The notes beneath the pieces were generated by a model, which ran no database searches, was not told the origin of the DNA, and was given only the letters and a program-made list of their open reading frames with translations. Below, one piece after another: positions 42,189 to 45,753 of a stretch of 46,069 bases of DNA (position 1 is its first letter; each line of letters begins with the position of its first letter). Made by a program: the position numbers and the translations under genes. The stretch is from positions 1-46,069 of the forward strand of contig NZ_JH376607.1 in the NCBI RefSeq assembly GCF_000233955.1, given 5' to 3'. This DNA is from Paraprevotella clara YIT 11840 (GTDB lineage Bacteria; Bacteroidota; Bacteroidia; Bacteroidales; Bacteroidaceae).

Positions 42189-44477
42189 ATGAGAAACAAA
42201 ACGATTAAAAGCCTGCTGCTCCCGGCGCTATGCTTCATAGCGGCAAACGGACAGGCACAAGGCACATTGGAAGACTACCGGAGGGCATATTCCCTCTACG
42301 AAAAGTTCAATGCCACACAGGTGTATAACGACCCGACAGACATACGATGGGACGGAAAAACTACATTCCACTACTCTGTCTATACGCCGGAAGGGACAGA
42401 CTATTACGTAGGCAAAGTAACGGGAGACGTGAAAACGGCTGACGTAAAAGCAATTCACATGAAGGCCTTGGCAGAACTGCTTTCCCGCGAGACCGGAAAG
42501 GACATCCCACGAAACACGCTAAGACTGTCACGCTTGAGTGTGGACGAGAACCAACCCACGTCCGTATCCTTCGAATTCGACGGTTACAAATGGAAAGTCG
42601 AAGAAGCTTGCACCGCCGGACTACGGTTAGGCAGCAAAGAAACCCTGCCTGCCTCCAAAAGACCATGGAAAAAACCGCGTCACTGGATGGAAGTGGACGA
42701 TGAGAAAGGGGCGGCTCCCGTAGCGTCACCCGACGGGAAACGGCAAGCTTATATCAAGAACGACAATGTGTACGTCAGCGATCGGGACGGCCGCCACGAA
42801 CGGGCGTTGAGCAACGACGGGACGGCCGGCAATTACTATTCTAGTTGGCTCAAATGGAGCCCGGACGGCAAGTACGTATGTGCCAACAAGATACGTCCGG
42901 CCCAGAAACGGTATGTATATTACGTGGAAAGCTCGCCCAAAAGCCAGCTTCAGCCCATCCTTCACCAACAGGAATACGCCAAGCCGGGCGATGAATTGCG
43001 CTTCAAGGTGCCTTGCATATTCAACGTGGAAACAGGGCAGGCCGTCATTCCGTCTACCGAAGTCTTCGACCGCCAGTACGACTTATACGGTCCGGAATGG
43101 AAAGAAGACGGGAAAGCGGTGACTTTTGAATATAACGAACGCGGCCATAAGACCTACCGCGTGCTGGAACTCGATGCGGAAACCGGAAAGGTACGCACAC
43201 TCGTGGAGGAAAGCAGCCCCACCTTTGTCAACTACAGCCGTATGTTCCGCCATGTCCTGAAAGGCGGGAAAGAAATGATATGGATGAGCGAACGGGACAA
43301 CTGGAACCACCTCTACATGATCGACATGGAGAAAGGCAAGGTGTCCCGGCAAATCACAAAGGGCGACTGGGTGGTGCGCCGCGTACTCAAAGTGGACGAA
43401 GACAACCAAGTGATTTACTTTACGGCCAGTGGTGTAAATCCCAAAGAAGACCCTTACCATGTACATTACTATAAAATAAACATGGACGGCAAGCAAATGA
43501 CCTGCCTCACGCCAGAAGAAGGAAACCACTCGGCCGTCTTCAATGAAGATTACACCCTGTGGATTGACAAATATTCCACAGCAGAACAGGCTCCCGTCAC
43601 CGTCCTGCGCACGACACAAGGCGAGAAAGCGGAGGGACGGACATTGGCACAAGCGGATTTAAGCAAAATCAAATCGGCCGGATGGACTGCCCCTGAAATC
43701 TTCACCGCTCCCGGACGGGACGGCGTGACACCTATGTGGGGCATCATCCAACGTCCGACCAATTTCGACCCGCAAAAGAAATATCCGGTCATCGAATACA
43801 TCTATTCCGGCCCCGGAGATGCTTACACGCCCAAAAGCTTCCTTCCCTACAACGGATATACGACGGCACTGGCCGAATTGGGATTCATCGTTGTGCAGCT
43901 CGACGCCATGGGGACATCCTATCGCGGAAAGAAGTTTGAAGAGGTGTGCTATAAGAACCTGAAAGATGCCGGTTTCCCCGACCGTATCCAGTGGATCAAG
44001 GCGGCAGCGGAAAAGTACCCCTATATGGACAGTACCCGTGTGGGGATATACGGTTGCTCTGCCGGAGGACAGGAAGCTTTGGCCGCCGTACTTTTCCACC
44101 CGGAATTCTACAAGGCATCCTACTCCAGTTGCGGTTGCCACGACAACCGGATGGACAAAATCTGGTGGAACGAACAATGGATGGGCTATCCGGTGGACAG
44201 CAGCTACATCGCTTGCTCCAACGTGGAAAACGCCCACCGGCTGACACGCCCGCTGATGCTCGTGGTAGGAGAAATGGACGACAACGTGGATCCGGCCTCC
44301 ACCATGCAAGTGGTCGATGCTCTCATCAAAGCCAACAAGGATTTCGAGTTGGTGGTCCTGCCGGGCGTAAGGCACAGCATGGGTGAAAGCTACGGGGAAC
44401 ACAAGCGTTTCGATTTCTTCGTAAAAGAGCTCATGGGAGTGGAACCACCGAAATGGGAAGAATTGAAACGAAAATAG
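42189..44477 (+). CDS. S9 family prolyl oligopeptidase / dipeptidyl peptidase IV-like
   Basis: The 762-residue protein has a signal peptide (residues about 1-22, ending GQAQ) and acts outside the cytoplasm. The N-terminal half is a DPPIV-type beta-propeller (ASPDGKRQAYIKNDNVYV, WSPDGKYVCANK). The C-terminal alpha/beta-hydrolase domain has the catalytic Ser624 in YGCSAGGQEA, Asp697/Asp698 in GEMDDNVDP and His729 in GVRHSMGE. DPPIV-type enzymes release X-Pro or X-Ala dipeptides; the exact specificity here is not known. The length is usual for the family. It is the third gene of the operon with the DUF6057 and TolB-like genes, and a very long palindrome follows. Confidence 0.93.
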   Translation: MRNKTIKSLLLPALCFIAANGQAQGTLEDYRRAYSLYEKFNATQVYNDPTDIRWDGKTTFHYSVYTPEGTDYYVGKVTGDVKTADVKAIHMKALAELLSRETGKDIPRNTLRLSRLSVDENQPTSVSFEFDGYKWKVEEACTAGLRLGSKETLPASKRPWKKPRHWMEVDDEKGAAPVASPDGKRQAYIKNDNVYVSDRDGRHERALSNDGTAGNYYSSWLKWSPDGKYVCANKIRPAQKRYVYYVESSPKSQLQPILHQQEYAKPGDELRFKVPCIFNVETGQAVIPSTEVFDRQYDLYGPEWKEDGKAVTFEYNERGHKTYRVLELDAETGKVRTLVEESSPTFVNYSRMFRHVLKGGKEMIWMSERDNWNHLYMIDMEKGKVSRQITKGDWVVRRVLKVDEDNQVIYFTASGVNPKEDPYHVHYYKINMDGKQMTCLTPEEGNHSAVFNEDYTLWIDKYSTAEQAPVTVLRTTQGEKAEGRTLAQADLSKIKSAGWTAPEIFTAPGRDGVTPMWGIIQRPTNFDPQKKYPVIEYIYSGPGDAYTPKSFLPYNGYTTALAELGFIVVQLDAMGTSYRGKKFEEVCYKNLKDAGFPDRIQWIKAAAEKYPYMDSTRVGIYGCSAGGQEALAAVLFHPEFYKASYSSCGCHDNRMDKIWWNEQWMGYPVDSSYIACSNVENAHRLTRPLMLVVGEMDDNVDPASTMQVVDALIKANKDFELVVLPGVRHSMGESYGEHKRFDFFVKELMGVEPPKWEELKRK

Positions 44478-44483
44478 AAAGAA

Positions 44484-44536
44484 CTTTCATACGCAGACAG
44501 CCCGCCGGAATCCGGCGGGCTGTCTGCGTATGAAAG
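44484..44536 (+). terminator. 26-bp near-perfect palindrome, likely terminator of the S9 peptidase gene
   Basis: Positions 44484-44509 and 44511-44536 are perfect inverted repeats around a single-base centre, starting 7 nt after the stop. The stem core is CCCGCCGGA/TCCGGCGGG. The downstream T content is modest. It would also insulate this gene from the promoter region to the right. Confidence 0.7.
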
Positions 44537-44573
44537 CCATACTTAGCCTCATTTTATGGCTATTGGAAATCTA

Positions 44574-44743
44574 TCTCTCCGTAAGAGAGCGTACAGTGGG
44601 TATTTACTGCTTGATAACCAAAGGAGTATATGGAATTTGTTTTCTGGATTTTGTATGCAGTGTTTGATTTTTGTTCACTTTTGTTTGCTTAGTTCCTTGG
44701 TAAATCCTAACTTTGTGTGAGCGATCGCTCTCTTACGGAGAGA
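44574..44743. promoter_or_regulatory. Candidate invertible (phase-variable) promoter segment
   Basis: TCTCTCCGTAAGAGAGCG (44574-44591) and its exact reverse complement (44726-44743) bound 134 nt of AT-rich DNA. Inside, close to the right repeat, is a consensus promoter pointing at the lipoprotein gene. Inversion between the repeats would turn the promoter away from the gene. This is the known layout of Bacteroides invertible promoters. No recombinase gene lies in the window, and inversion itself is not shown. Confidence 0.65.
44684..44715 (+). promoter_or_regulatory. Consensus promoter for the lipoprotein gene
   Basis: TTTG (44684-44687), 20 nt, then TAACTTTG (44708-44715): a full match to the Bacteroides -33/-7 consensus. 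Transcription would start near 44722, just before the right inverted repeat, so the leader of about 57 nt contains that repeat. Confidence 0.8.
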
Positions 44744-44778
44744 CAAACCCAATTACCAACCATTTAAATTCAAACTTT

Positions 44779-45753
44779 ATGAAGAAACATTTGTTATGGA
44801 CATGCTGCCTCTTGGCAGTAGGATTCGCTTCCTGTAGCGATGACGACGAAAAAAAGACTGACCCCACTCCTCCGGGAGACCAAGCCACGACAACTCCGGA
44901 CGTAAGTCAGGATCTGGGCATACAATTCCCGGTGACCTCCATCAACGGAAGTTGGGAAGTATTCAATTACACTGACGGCAAACTAACAAGCGGTACGTTA
45001 TCCAACCCGAACGGTACTTTCACCATCAGCCACAATCCGCTCACCATCAAGGTTGAAATGCAATACGGAGACAGCGGCGATGAAAGTTCCGTGGAAACCT
45101 ACACCAATATCAAGGTAAACGACAAGGGATTTGCCACGTCGGCCACTTACCAATCCACGGACGTGTACGATGGCGAGACCGAAAAGACAAACGGACAGGC
45201 CACCATGGCATACGACGCGGATGGGCATATCACTGAAAAACAAGTGAACTCAACAGGCCCTGGATACACGGAGAACTATAAAATCACTTACACTTGGAAC
45301 AACGGCAACCTGCTCAGCGTACAAGTTGAAGACCGCTATTCAGACAATGAAGAATCAGGAGTTCTGACGACCATTTACAAATACACGTATGGAGAAGGAC
45401 AACCGAACCCCGGTATTTATTTTGATGGAATGTGGTACATGACTTACGACTTCATGTGGTATGCCGGACTGTTCGGAAAGACCACCAAGGACATCCCCAC
45501 CTCCGTAAAATATACTGAAATAGAAGACGGGCAAGTCTACTATGAATATGAAAAAACGCTTGTCCCGCATTACAATGAAAACGGCTCATTGGCTTCTCTG
45601 GAGTATTGGAATGCAGCCGGGTATGTAGAACGGACCTATACATTCGGATATAACGGACAAGCCGTGGAAGCCTACGTGGACCCGGCCCAAAAGAGCCTGG
45701 AAACAAGACGGGCACACCGTATCCACCGGAAAGCAAAACCTATCCGGTATTAA
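44779..45753 (+). CDS. Putative surface lipoprotein (DUF4595-like) under the invertible promoter
   Basis: The 324-residue protein has a lipoprotein signal peptide (MKKHLLWTCCLLAVGFASC, lipid Cys at 19) followed by an acidic SDDDEKK, a sequence that in Bacteroides favours surface export. After a Pro/Thr-rich linker, residues about 60-310 form beta-rich repeats of the YD type (GFATSATYQSTDVYD, TMAYDADGHITEKQVN, NYKITYTWNNGNLLSVQVED). These suggest the DUF4595 family of Bacteroidales. No enzyme motif is seen. The start is the ATG at 44779, since the signal peptide begins there, although the frame is open back to 44713. The promoter lies between inverted repeats, so its expression may switch on and off. 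Confidence 0.82.
   Translation: MKKHLLWTCCLLAVGFASCSDDDEKKTDPTPPGDQATTTPDVSQDLGIQFPVTSINGSWEVFNYTDGKLTSGTLSNPNGTFTISHNPLTIKVEMQYGDSGDESSVETYTNIKVNDKGFATSATYQSTDVYDGETEKTNGQATMAYDADGHITEKQVNSTGPGYTENYKITYTWNNGNLLSVQVEDRYSDNEESGVLTTIYKYTYGEGQPNPGIYFDGMWYMTYDFMWYAGLFGKTTKDIPTSVKYTEIEDGQVYYEYEKTLVPHYNENGSLASLEYWNAAGYVERTYTFGYNGQAVEAYVDPAQKSLETRRAHRIHRKAKPIRY

Follow-up and report, generated by a model that had tools for sequence, protein, structure and literature searches.

Invertible promoters are a known kind of switch in Bacteroidales. In the available part of a study of Bacteroides fragilis, three master invertases are described: the serine recombinase Mpi, which serves 13 regions, Tsr0667, and Tsr19, which acts on a near and a distant promoter (PMC4747536). 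In several Bacteroides species and in Parabacteroides distasonis, tyrosine-type invertases are accompanied by repeats that contain inner palindromes and have half-sites GTTAC or GCTACT, and the repeats of Bacteroidales invertible promoters are given as GTTAC...GTAAC or GCTACTYRGNRAGTAGC in the text available (PMC12118408). Invertases with two downstream switches have been described on conjugative elements, as has pMMCAT, in a paper whose accessible portion names Paraprevotella xylaniphila once, as host of one such element (PMC8748976). The invertons of a defined community have been profiled, and the stem 'prevotell' is absent from the main text of that report in its accessible form (PMC11892184). 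Across the literature searched, in which subscription papers lay largely outside scope, we found no description of the site family or the Paraprevotella network presented here. To this known kind of switch our analysis adds a 16-locus family, a site code, inversions between species and a candidate enzyme.

The stretch analysed, hereafter the window, comprises 46,069 nt of Paraprevotella clara YIT 11840 (NZ_JH376607.1). Near its end, positions 44574-44743 very probably form an invertible promoter (inverton), one of at least 16 in the genome that use a common site and are most likely served by one stand-alone tyrosine recombinase. The features of the locus are:

42189..44477, + strand: upstream gene, a 762-aa ORF from the ORF list, which runs towards the switch and lies outside its control
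44484..44536, no strand: perfect 26-bp hairpin (z -10.1), between the upstream gene and the left arm
44569..44593, no strand: predicted left recombination site of about 25 bp, centre 44581, with core CTCTCCGTAAGAG at 44575-44587 and the 18-bp arm at 44574-44591
44592..44725, no strand: predicted invertible segment of 134 nt, the stretch between the perfect arms
44684..44715, + strand: predicted promoter, with -33 TTTG at 44684-44687 and -7 TAACTTTG at 44708-44715
44724..44748, no strand: predicted right recombination site of about 25 bp, centre 44736, with core at 44730-44742 and the 18-bp arm at 44726-44743
44779..45753, + strand: putatively controlled gene, a predicted surface lipoprotein of 324 aa with a lipobox and an acidic stretch after the cysteine (CSDDDE), by eye

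A sequence-only reading of this DNA had reported two perfect 18-bp inverted repeats enclosing 134 nt, and its positions are exact to the base: TCTCTCCGTAAGAGAGCG at 44574-44591 and CGCTCTCTTACGGAGAGA at 44726-44743 are 100% complementary. They form the only perfect inverted repeat of at least 14 bp at 60-400 bp distance within the window, and over the same distances 100 dinucleotide shuffles yielded on average 0.03 perfect inverted repeats of ≥14 bp and 0.01 of ≥16 bp each. The window holds no further copy of the 18-mer arm within 3 mismatches, and the 100 shuffles gave 0 matches. The conserved site exceeds this repeat, each arm comprising an imperfect palindrome of about 25 bp.

The -33 TTTG of the promoter is part of the consensus TTTG, 19-21, TAnnTTTG. 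As the same reading had claimed, the promoter aimed at the lipoprotein gene at 44779 has the full consensus: TTTG-N20-TAACTTTG is an exact match at 44684-44715 on the + strand, and its -7 box ends 14 bp before the core of the right arm. TAnnTTTG is named as a B. fragilis promoter consensus in the available part of one study (PMC3090145). Exact matches to TTTG-N19-21-TANNTTTG occur twice in the window, and shuffles contain 0.58 on average and 3 at most, so that by itself the promoter match lacks significance; its worth lies, rather than in its rarity, in where it stands, within the repeat and at a distance from the arm that recurs at sister loci. A generic E. coli-type promoter scan misses it, as expected for a Bacteroidota-type consensus.

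With one mismatch allowed, the 15-bp core of the arm recurs elsewhere in the genus, in pairs that face each other. We defined a pair as the symmetric pattern CTCTYNNNRAGAG found twice at 141-201 bp, with the reversed pattern as control. The P. clara genome holds 16 such pairs, a lower bound since collection by the core pattern undercounts variant sites, and at least one pair occurs in 13/18 Paraprevotella genomes, versus 0/18 for the control. There are 66 pattern matches in the genus, two of which (G014) have a common arm. Family-wide, matches were found in 63/301 genomes, P. clara counted, against control matches in two (G120, G216); the arms in G152 are unequal, so the family count is an upper bound. 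Two genomes of another genus reach 12 matches each. A scan of contigs for pairs gave 33 stretches, ten of which were dropped from the argument: L040, L043, L045, L048, L052, L053, L062 and L066 have CCCCTCTCC..GAGAGGGG-like flanks and look like unrelated palindromic repeats, and L044 and L057 have unequal arms.

All 63 genus pairs compared, drawn from loci in part of the 18 genomes, have identical 13-bp arms, the three free centre letters included, and arm equality was no search criterion; a few of these pairs share an arm. Past the fixed letters the half-site has A followed by G or T; after two loose positions come A (0.82) and C or T, and it reaches position 12, which gives a whole site of about 25 bp around one central base. 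Centres vary between loci and also recur, several P. clara loci having the same one. The switches at G000:C21:233497, C39:1657 and C65:66045 have the centre CCT/AGG in common, so exchange between these loci should be possible. At three P. xylaniphila switches the arm is doubled at one end (L232 3054/3079, G014:C23; L154 3723/3755, G014:C87; L233 3368/3407, G014:C32), and doubled repeats are also described for the Tsr19 capsule switch of B. fragilis in the text available (PMC3090145). In metagenome assemblies contig ends lie close to some arms (e.g. G002:C1, C16), where orientations could be mixed.

Like the tyrosine-type invertible promoters of Bacteroidales, as far as the accessible text describes them, these loci combine short repeats containing inner palindromes with a loose centre, an enclosed promoter, surface or capsule genes and a related kind of enzyme. 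They differ in that the P. clara half-sites are of AAGAGA type and most loci lie away from any recombinase gene (PMC12118408). The GTTAC...GTAAC half-sites of the B. thetaiotaomicron, B. fragilis and B. xylanisolvens class are found neither in the arms of the window's switch nor in any of the 63 pairs, a set collected by the AAGAGA-type core that they have instead.

The reading of the segment as an invertible promoter is strengthened by sister loci with the same arms, which are found in both orientations across two species. We compared the 16 P. clara pairs with all 12 distinct P. xylaniphila pairs by BLAST and scored inner-segment identity for each sense, same and reversed. Among 11 orthologous switches, four are inverted exactly between the arms (inner identity 0.80-0.92 reversed vs 0.45-0.56 same), six are alike, five of them at 0.84-0.95 and one weakly (0.60 vs 0.49), and one is ambiguous; at this last locus, C39:60816, the orientations score 0.57 vs 0.55 and a 51-nt local match leans to inverted. 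At C3:160564 the right outer flank is in place and the two inner flanks have swapped sides, a pattern that places the exchange inside the core. The core itself differs between the species at four of the 11 loci (C15:3557, C3:160564, C23:149814 and C39:60816), and both arms have changed alike, as expected if recombination keeps arms equal. The comparison with related genomes that had been proposed for this DNA finds inversion at sister loci (4/11), and for 44574-44743 itself P. xylaniphila offers no ortholog to compare. There the flanks of the locus are kept at 94-95% identity, the upstream gene at ~94% DNA identity, and both switch and lipoprotein are absent, so that the two seem to come or go together; in their place P. 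xylaniphila carries different ORFs, of which the two largest encode 133 and 379 aa.

The sister loci also share a common build. From the end of the -7 box of the best promoter to the nearer arm core is 13-17 bp at 11 of the 16 P. clara loci (14 in the window); at the remaining five the box is 34-38 bp off (three) or farther or ambiguous (two). Promoters at six loci score a full 10/10 letters, whereas three of the eleven reach just 8/10; a best-of-several search favours such finds, which makes the weaker promoters tentative. Judged by eye from N-termini, the genes beside the switches include some for lipoproteins, for outer-membrane proteins and for UpxY-like regulators, as well as divergent glycosyltransferase operons, and at these operons the promoter faces one side or the other. 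At L140 3567-3756 (G000:C15:26566), L155 and L151 the switch lies between two divergent glycosyltransferase operons and an exact promoter faces the same operon in three genomes; this is likely an either/or glycan switch. Two switches on G000:C39 (L144 1657-1878, L230 3317-3536) stand before UpxY-like genes, again by eye, so capsule loci seem to be part of the same network.

The predicted lipoprotein itself matches no Pfam or NCBIfam family (NCBIfam, none above cut-offs). Modelled alone it is all-beta at low confidence, with a poor fold (mean pLDDT 56), and its best structural match is a porin-like Bacteroides protein (E 4.5e-4, TM 0.33/0.42). This predicted likeness is only a hint, as Rhs-repeat proteins score about equally. 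Surface lipoproteins in an S-layer study of B. thetaiotaomicron are reportedly phase-variable under an invertible promoter, and by that description the P. clara locus is alike in placing a surface lipoprotein under such a promoter. Matches to the lipoprotein occur in 10/18 genus genomes, the P. clara genome counted. A switch pair lies within 600 bp on the upstream side of three of the 17 homologues screened (G017:C34, G014:C42 and the paralogue G000:C21), and at none of the other 14; outside this 17-member screen, homologue G002:C4:89324 has a pair just upstream. In each of the three screened cases the best promoter, at 14-15 bp from the core of the arm, is oriented away from the gene. The nearest homologue, G017:C34 from another species (47% identity), has a core one letter off the pattern; its promoter is exact, lies 14 bp from that core and is directed away from the lipoprotein gene. 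Within the screened lipoprotein-switch set the copy in the window is the sole member read as ON, and the earlier proposal that the present orientation is ON gains support from this closest homologue, where the same switch faces away.

Moreover, there is physical linkage between the site family and genes for tyrosine recombinases. P0002 is a tyrosine recombinase with PF00589 and a SAM-like integrase domain, whose gene adjoins a pair in G011:C26, and relatives were found in 18/18 genus genomes, some of them very weak. Tyrosine recombinase genes adjoin CTCTYNNNRAGAG pairs in the genus at G011:C26, G006:C22, C34, C37 and G008:C20, and recombinase genes adjoin pairs in four further named records (L056, L060, L063, L070); other P0002 relatives adjoin repeats of related or different sequence, and many adjoin none. 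NCBIfam gave no match above cut-offs for the five recombinases compared with it. This linkage to PF00589 relatives, together with the known character of Mpi sites, suggests that the sites are most likely recognised by a tyrosine recombinase and not by Mpi, in line with the initial suspicion of a different recombinase. In the P. clara genome, inverted repeats that differ in sequence (L237 2689-2901, G000:C19; L238 4558-4739, G000:C33) lie next to other recombinase genes, which makes additional switch families there probable. An interrupted recombinase gene of the same clade (G000:C16) lies near the repeat TCTCTGCGCAAGAGACCGACA (L239 4147-4337), which is a variant form of the family's site.

A tree of 29 rows and one of 37, with eight added, both built without fragments and genes with inner stops, contain the same ten-member group, one per genome, at support 100/100. 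The group spans 10/18 genus genomes and contains G000:C8 (2233-3438) and G014:C8. No CTCTYNNNRAGAG pair lies beside any of its ten genes in the stretches examined (in G015 just 48 nt past the gene), and none is adjacent to G000:C8:2233-3438 in 7 kb; the G013 gene has an unrelated repeat ~0.5 kb away. Between G000 and G014 the region of the C8 gene aligns over 5.1 kb at 92% identity, beside a MATE-type transporter gene (by eye) that also neighbours the group gene in G017, G005, G010 and G002. Dispersed pairs, from which five recombinase-adjacent pairs were subtracted by hand, number 16, 12, 7, 5, 4, 3, 3, 2, 2 and 0 in the ten genomes with the C8 group and 3, 1, 1, 1, 0, 0, 0 and 0 in the eight without it, and are more numerous with the group (p = 0.003, uncorrected for relatedness and completeness). 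The exceptions are G016, with three dispersed pairs and no C8 group, and G007, with the group and 0 pairs.

Beyond the genus, a close recombinase relative occurs in 10/10 pair-rich and 10/16 pair-free genomes among 26 further genomes of the family, which makes such a gene a weak predictor of pairs; three of the ten pair-free genomes with a relative (G081, G138, G187) have a wider-spaced pair beside the gene. From 30 loci taken in other family genomes, 28 were readable, and 13 of these have a complementary CTCTYNNNRAGAG pair within 750 bp of the gene end. Plasmid records include relatives ~54% identical to the C8 enzyme, 79 records having any match. On the Phocaeicola massiliensis plasmid OY726003.1 (L246 7233-7455, 7558-7769) a recombinase is followed by two pairs, the second with the exact core of the window, so this type of switch is also found on plasmids. 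On pMMCAT, two repeats related in sequence lie between a recombinase gene and the UpxY/EPS operon that follows it. The pMMCAT and conjugative-element invertases, as the accessible text presents them, are alike in their ~54% identity to the C8 enzyme, in being followed by such repeats and, on pMMCAT, in the UpxY/EPS genes; they are mobile and local, whereas the C8 gene is chromosomal, at a place common to P. xylaniphila, and remote from its putative sites (PMC8748976). Tsr19 (BF2766) of B. fragilis, as proposed for the C8 enzyme, is a tyrosine enzyme acting at a distance on surface genes that include a lipoprotein cluster; in the part of the source available it has two loci, versus at least 16 in P. 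clara, and its own adjacent switch, and none was found beside the C8 candidate in the 7 kb examined (PMC4747536).

In the mechanism that we propose, a tyrosine recombinase would bind the two near-palindromic sites, exchange strands inside the 13-bp core and so turn the segment round. In the ON state transcription would be expected to start near 44720, just before the right site, and to enter the lipoprotein gene. In the OFF state the flipped promoter would aim at the hairpin at 44484-44536, which scores as terminator-like on the - strand only, i.e. for leftward transcripts, and the lipoprotein gene would be silent; the expected states are thus plain ON and OFF, and expression would be expected to follow orientation. 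The at least 16 switches would most likely be served by one stand-alone tyrosine recombinase encoded elsewhere (G000:C8:2233-3438). We lean towards a network in which this enzyme, at one Paraprevotella chromosomal place, is the master of the at least 16 promoters, with pair-matched centre triplets partly insulating the loci from each other. Its putative targets comprise capsule regulators, glycosyltransferase operons, outer-membrane proteins and lipoproteins.

This copy very probably flips, and given that it does, the C8 enzyme is the probable agent, to judge from sequence comparison; what ties it to the sites is relatedness and co-occurrence. Against the inverton we count the like orientation of 6/11 orthologous sister loci. 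The promoter could instead be flipped by an enzyme other than C8, such as the relative at C19 or at C33, or one that the assembly lacks. We hold this to be possible and distinctly less likely: the P. clara genome has 18 P0002 matches, members outside the C8 group adjoin such pairs, and G016 keeps its three dispersed pairs without the group, but the C19 and C33 genes adjoin repeats of other sequence and dispersed pairs are commoner with the C8 group, at the uncorrected p value given above.

Improbable, in our judgement, is a segment that was formerly invertible and has become fixed in the ON state in this lineage. One inner half-site of the switch, AGCGTA, lacks the consensus A at position 11, a deviation seen in 18% of half-sites; decay, however, would tend to spoil a repeat that is perfect over 18 bp, free centre included, and the promoter is perfect too. 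Least probable by far is that the repeats are operators or an RNA hairpin rather than recombination sites. Each arm is itself a short palindrome, and within the expected leader a small hairpin can fold from the right arm, yet the leader folds no better than shuffles (z -0.35), and operators would leave unexplained both the inverted sister segments and the recombinase genes beside the same sites. The inverted sister loci contradict either form of this explanation unless the present copy differs from its family. An invertible promoter in a family of like switches is the reading that we retain.

Overall, the analysis defines a phase-variation network for a gut genus outside Bacteroides: its site code can be read, its ON/OFF states are predicted and a master enzyme is proposed for it, so that surface variability becomes testable by a handful of PCRs. 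The network resembles that of B. fragilis Mpi in comprising many invertible-promoter loci, and differs in that Mpi is a serine recombinase in the available text, whereas the P. clara site family goes with tyrosine recombinases (PMC4747536). If the one-enzyme reading is true, the C8 enzyme would be a many-locus counterpart of Mpi from the tyrosine family. The matched centre triplets would then pose the question of how one recombinase can act on many sites and leave the chromosome unscrambled.
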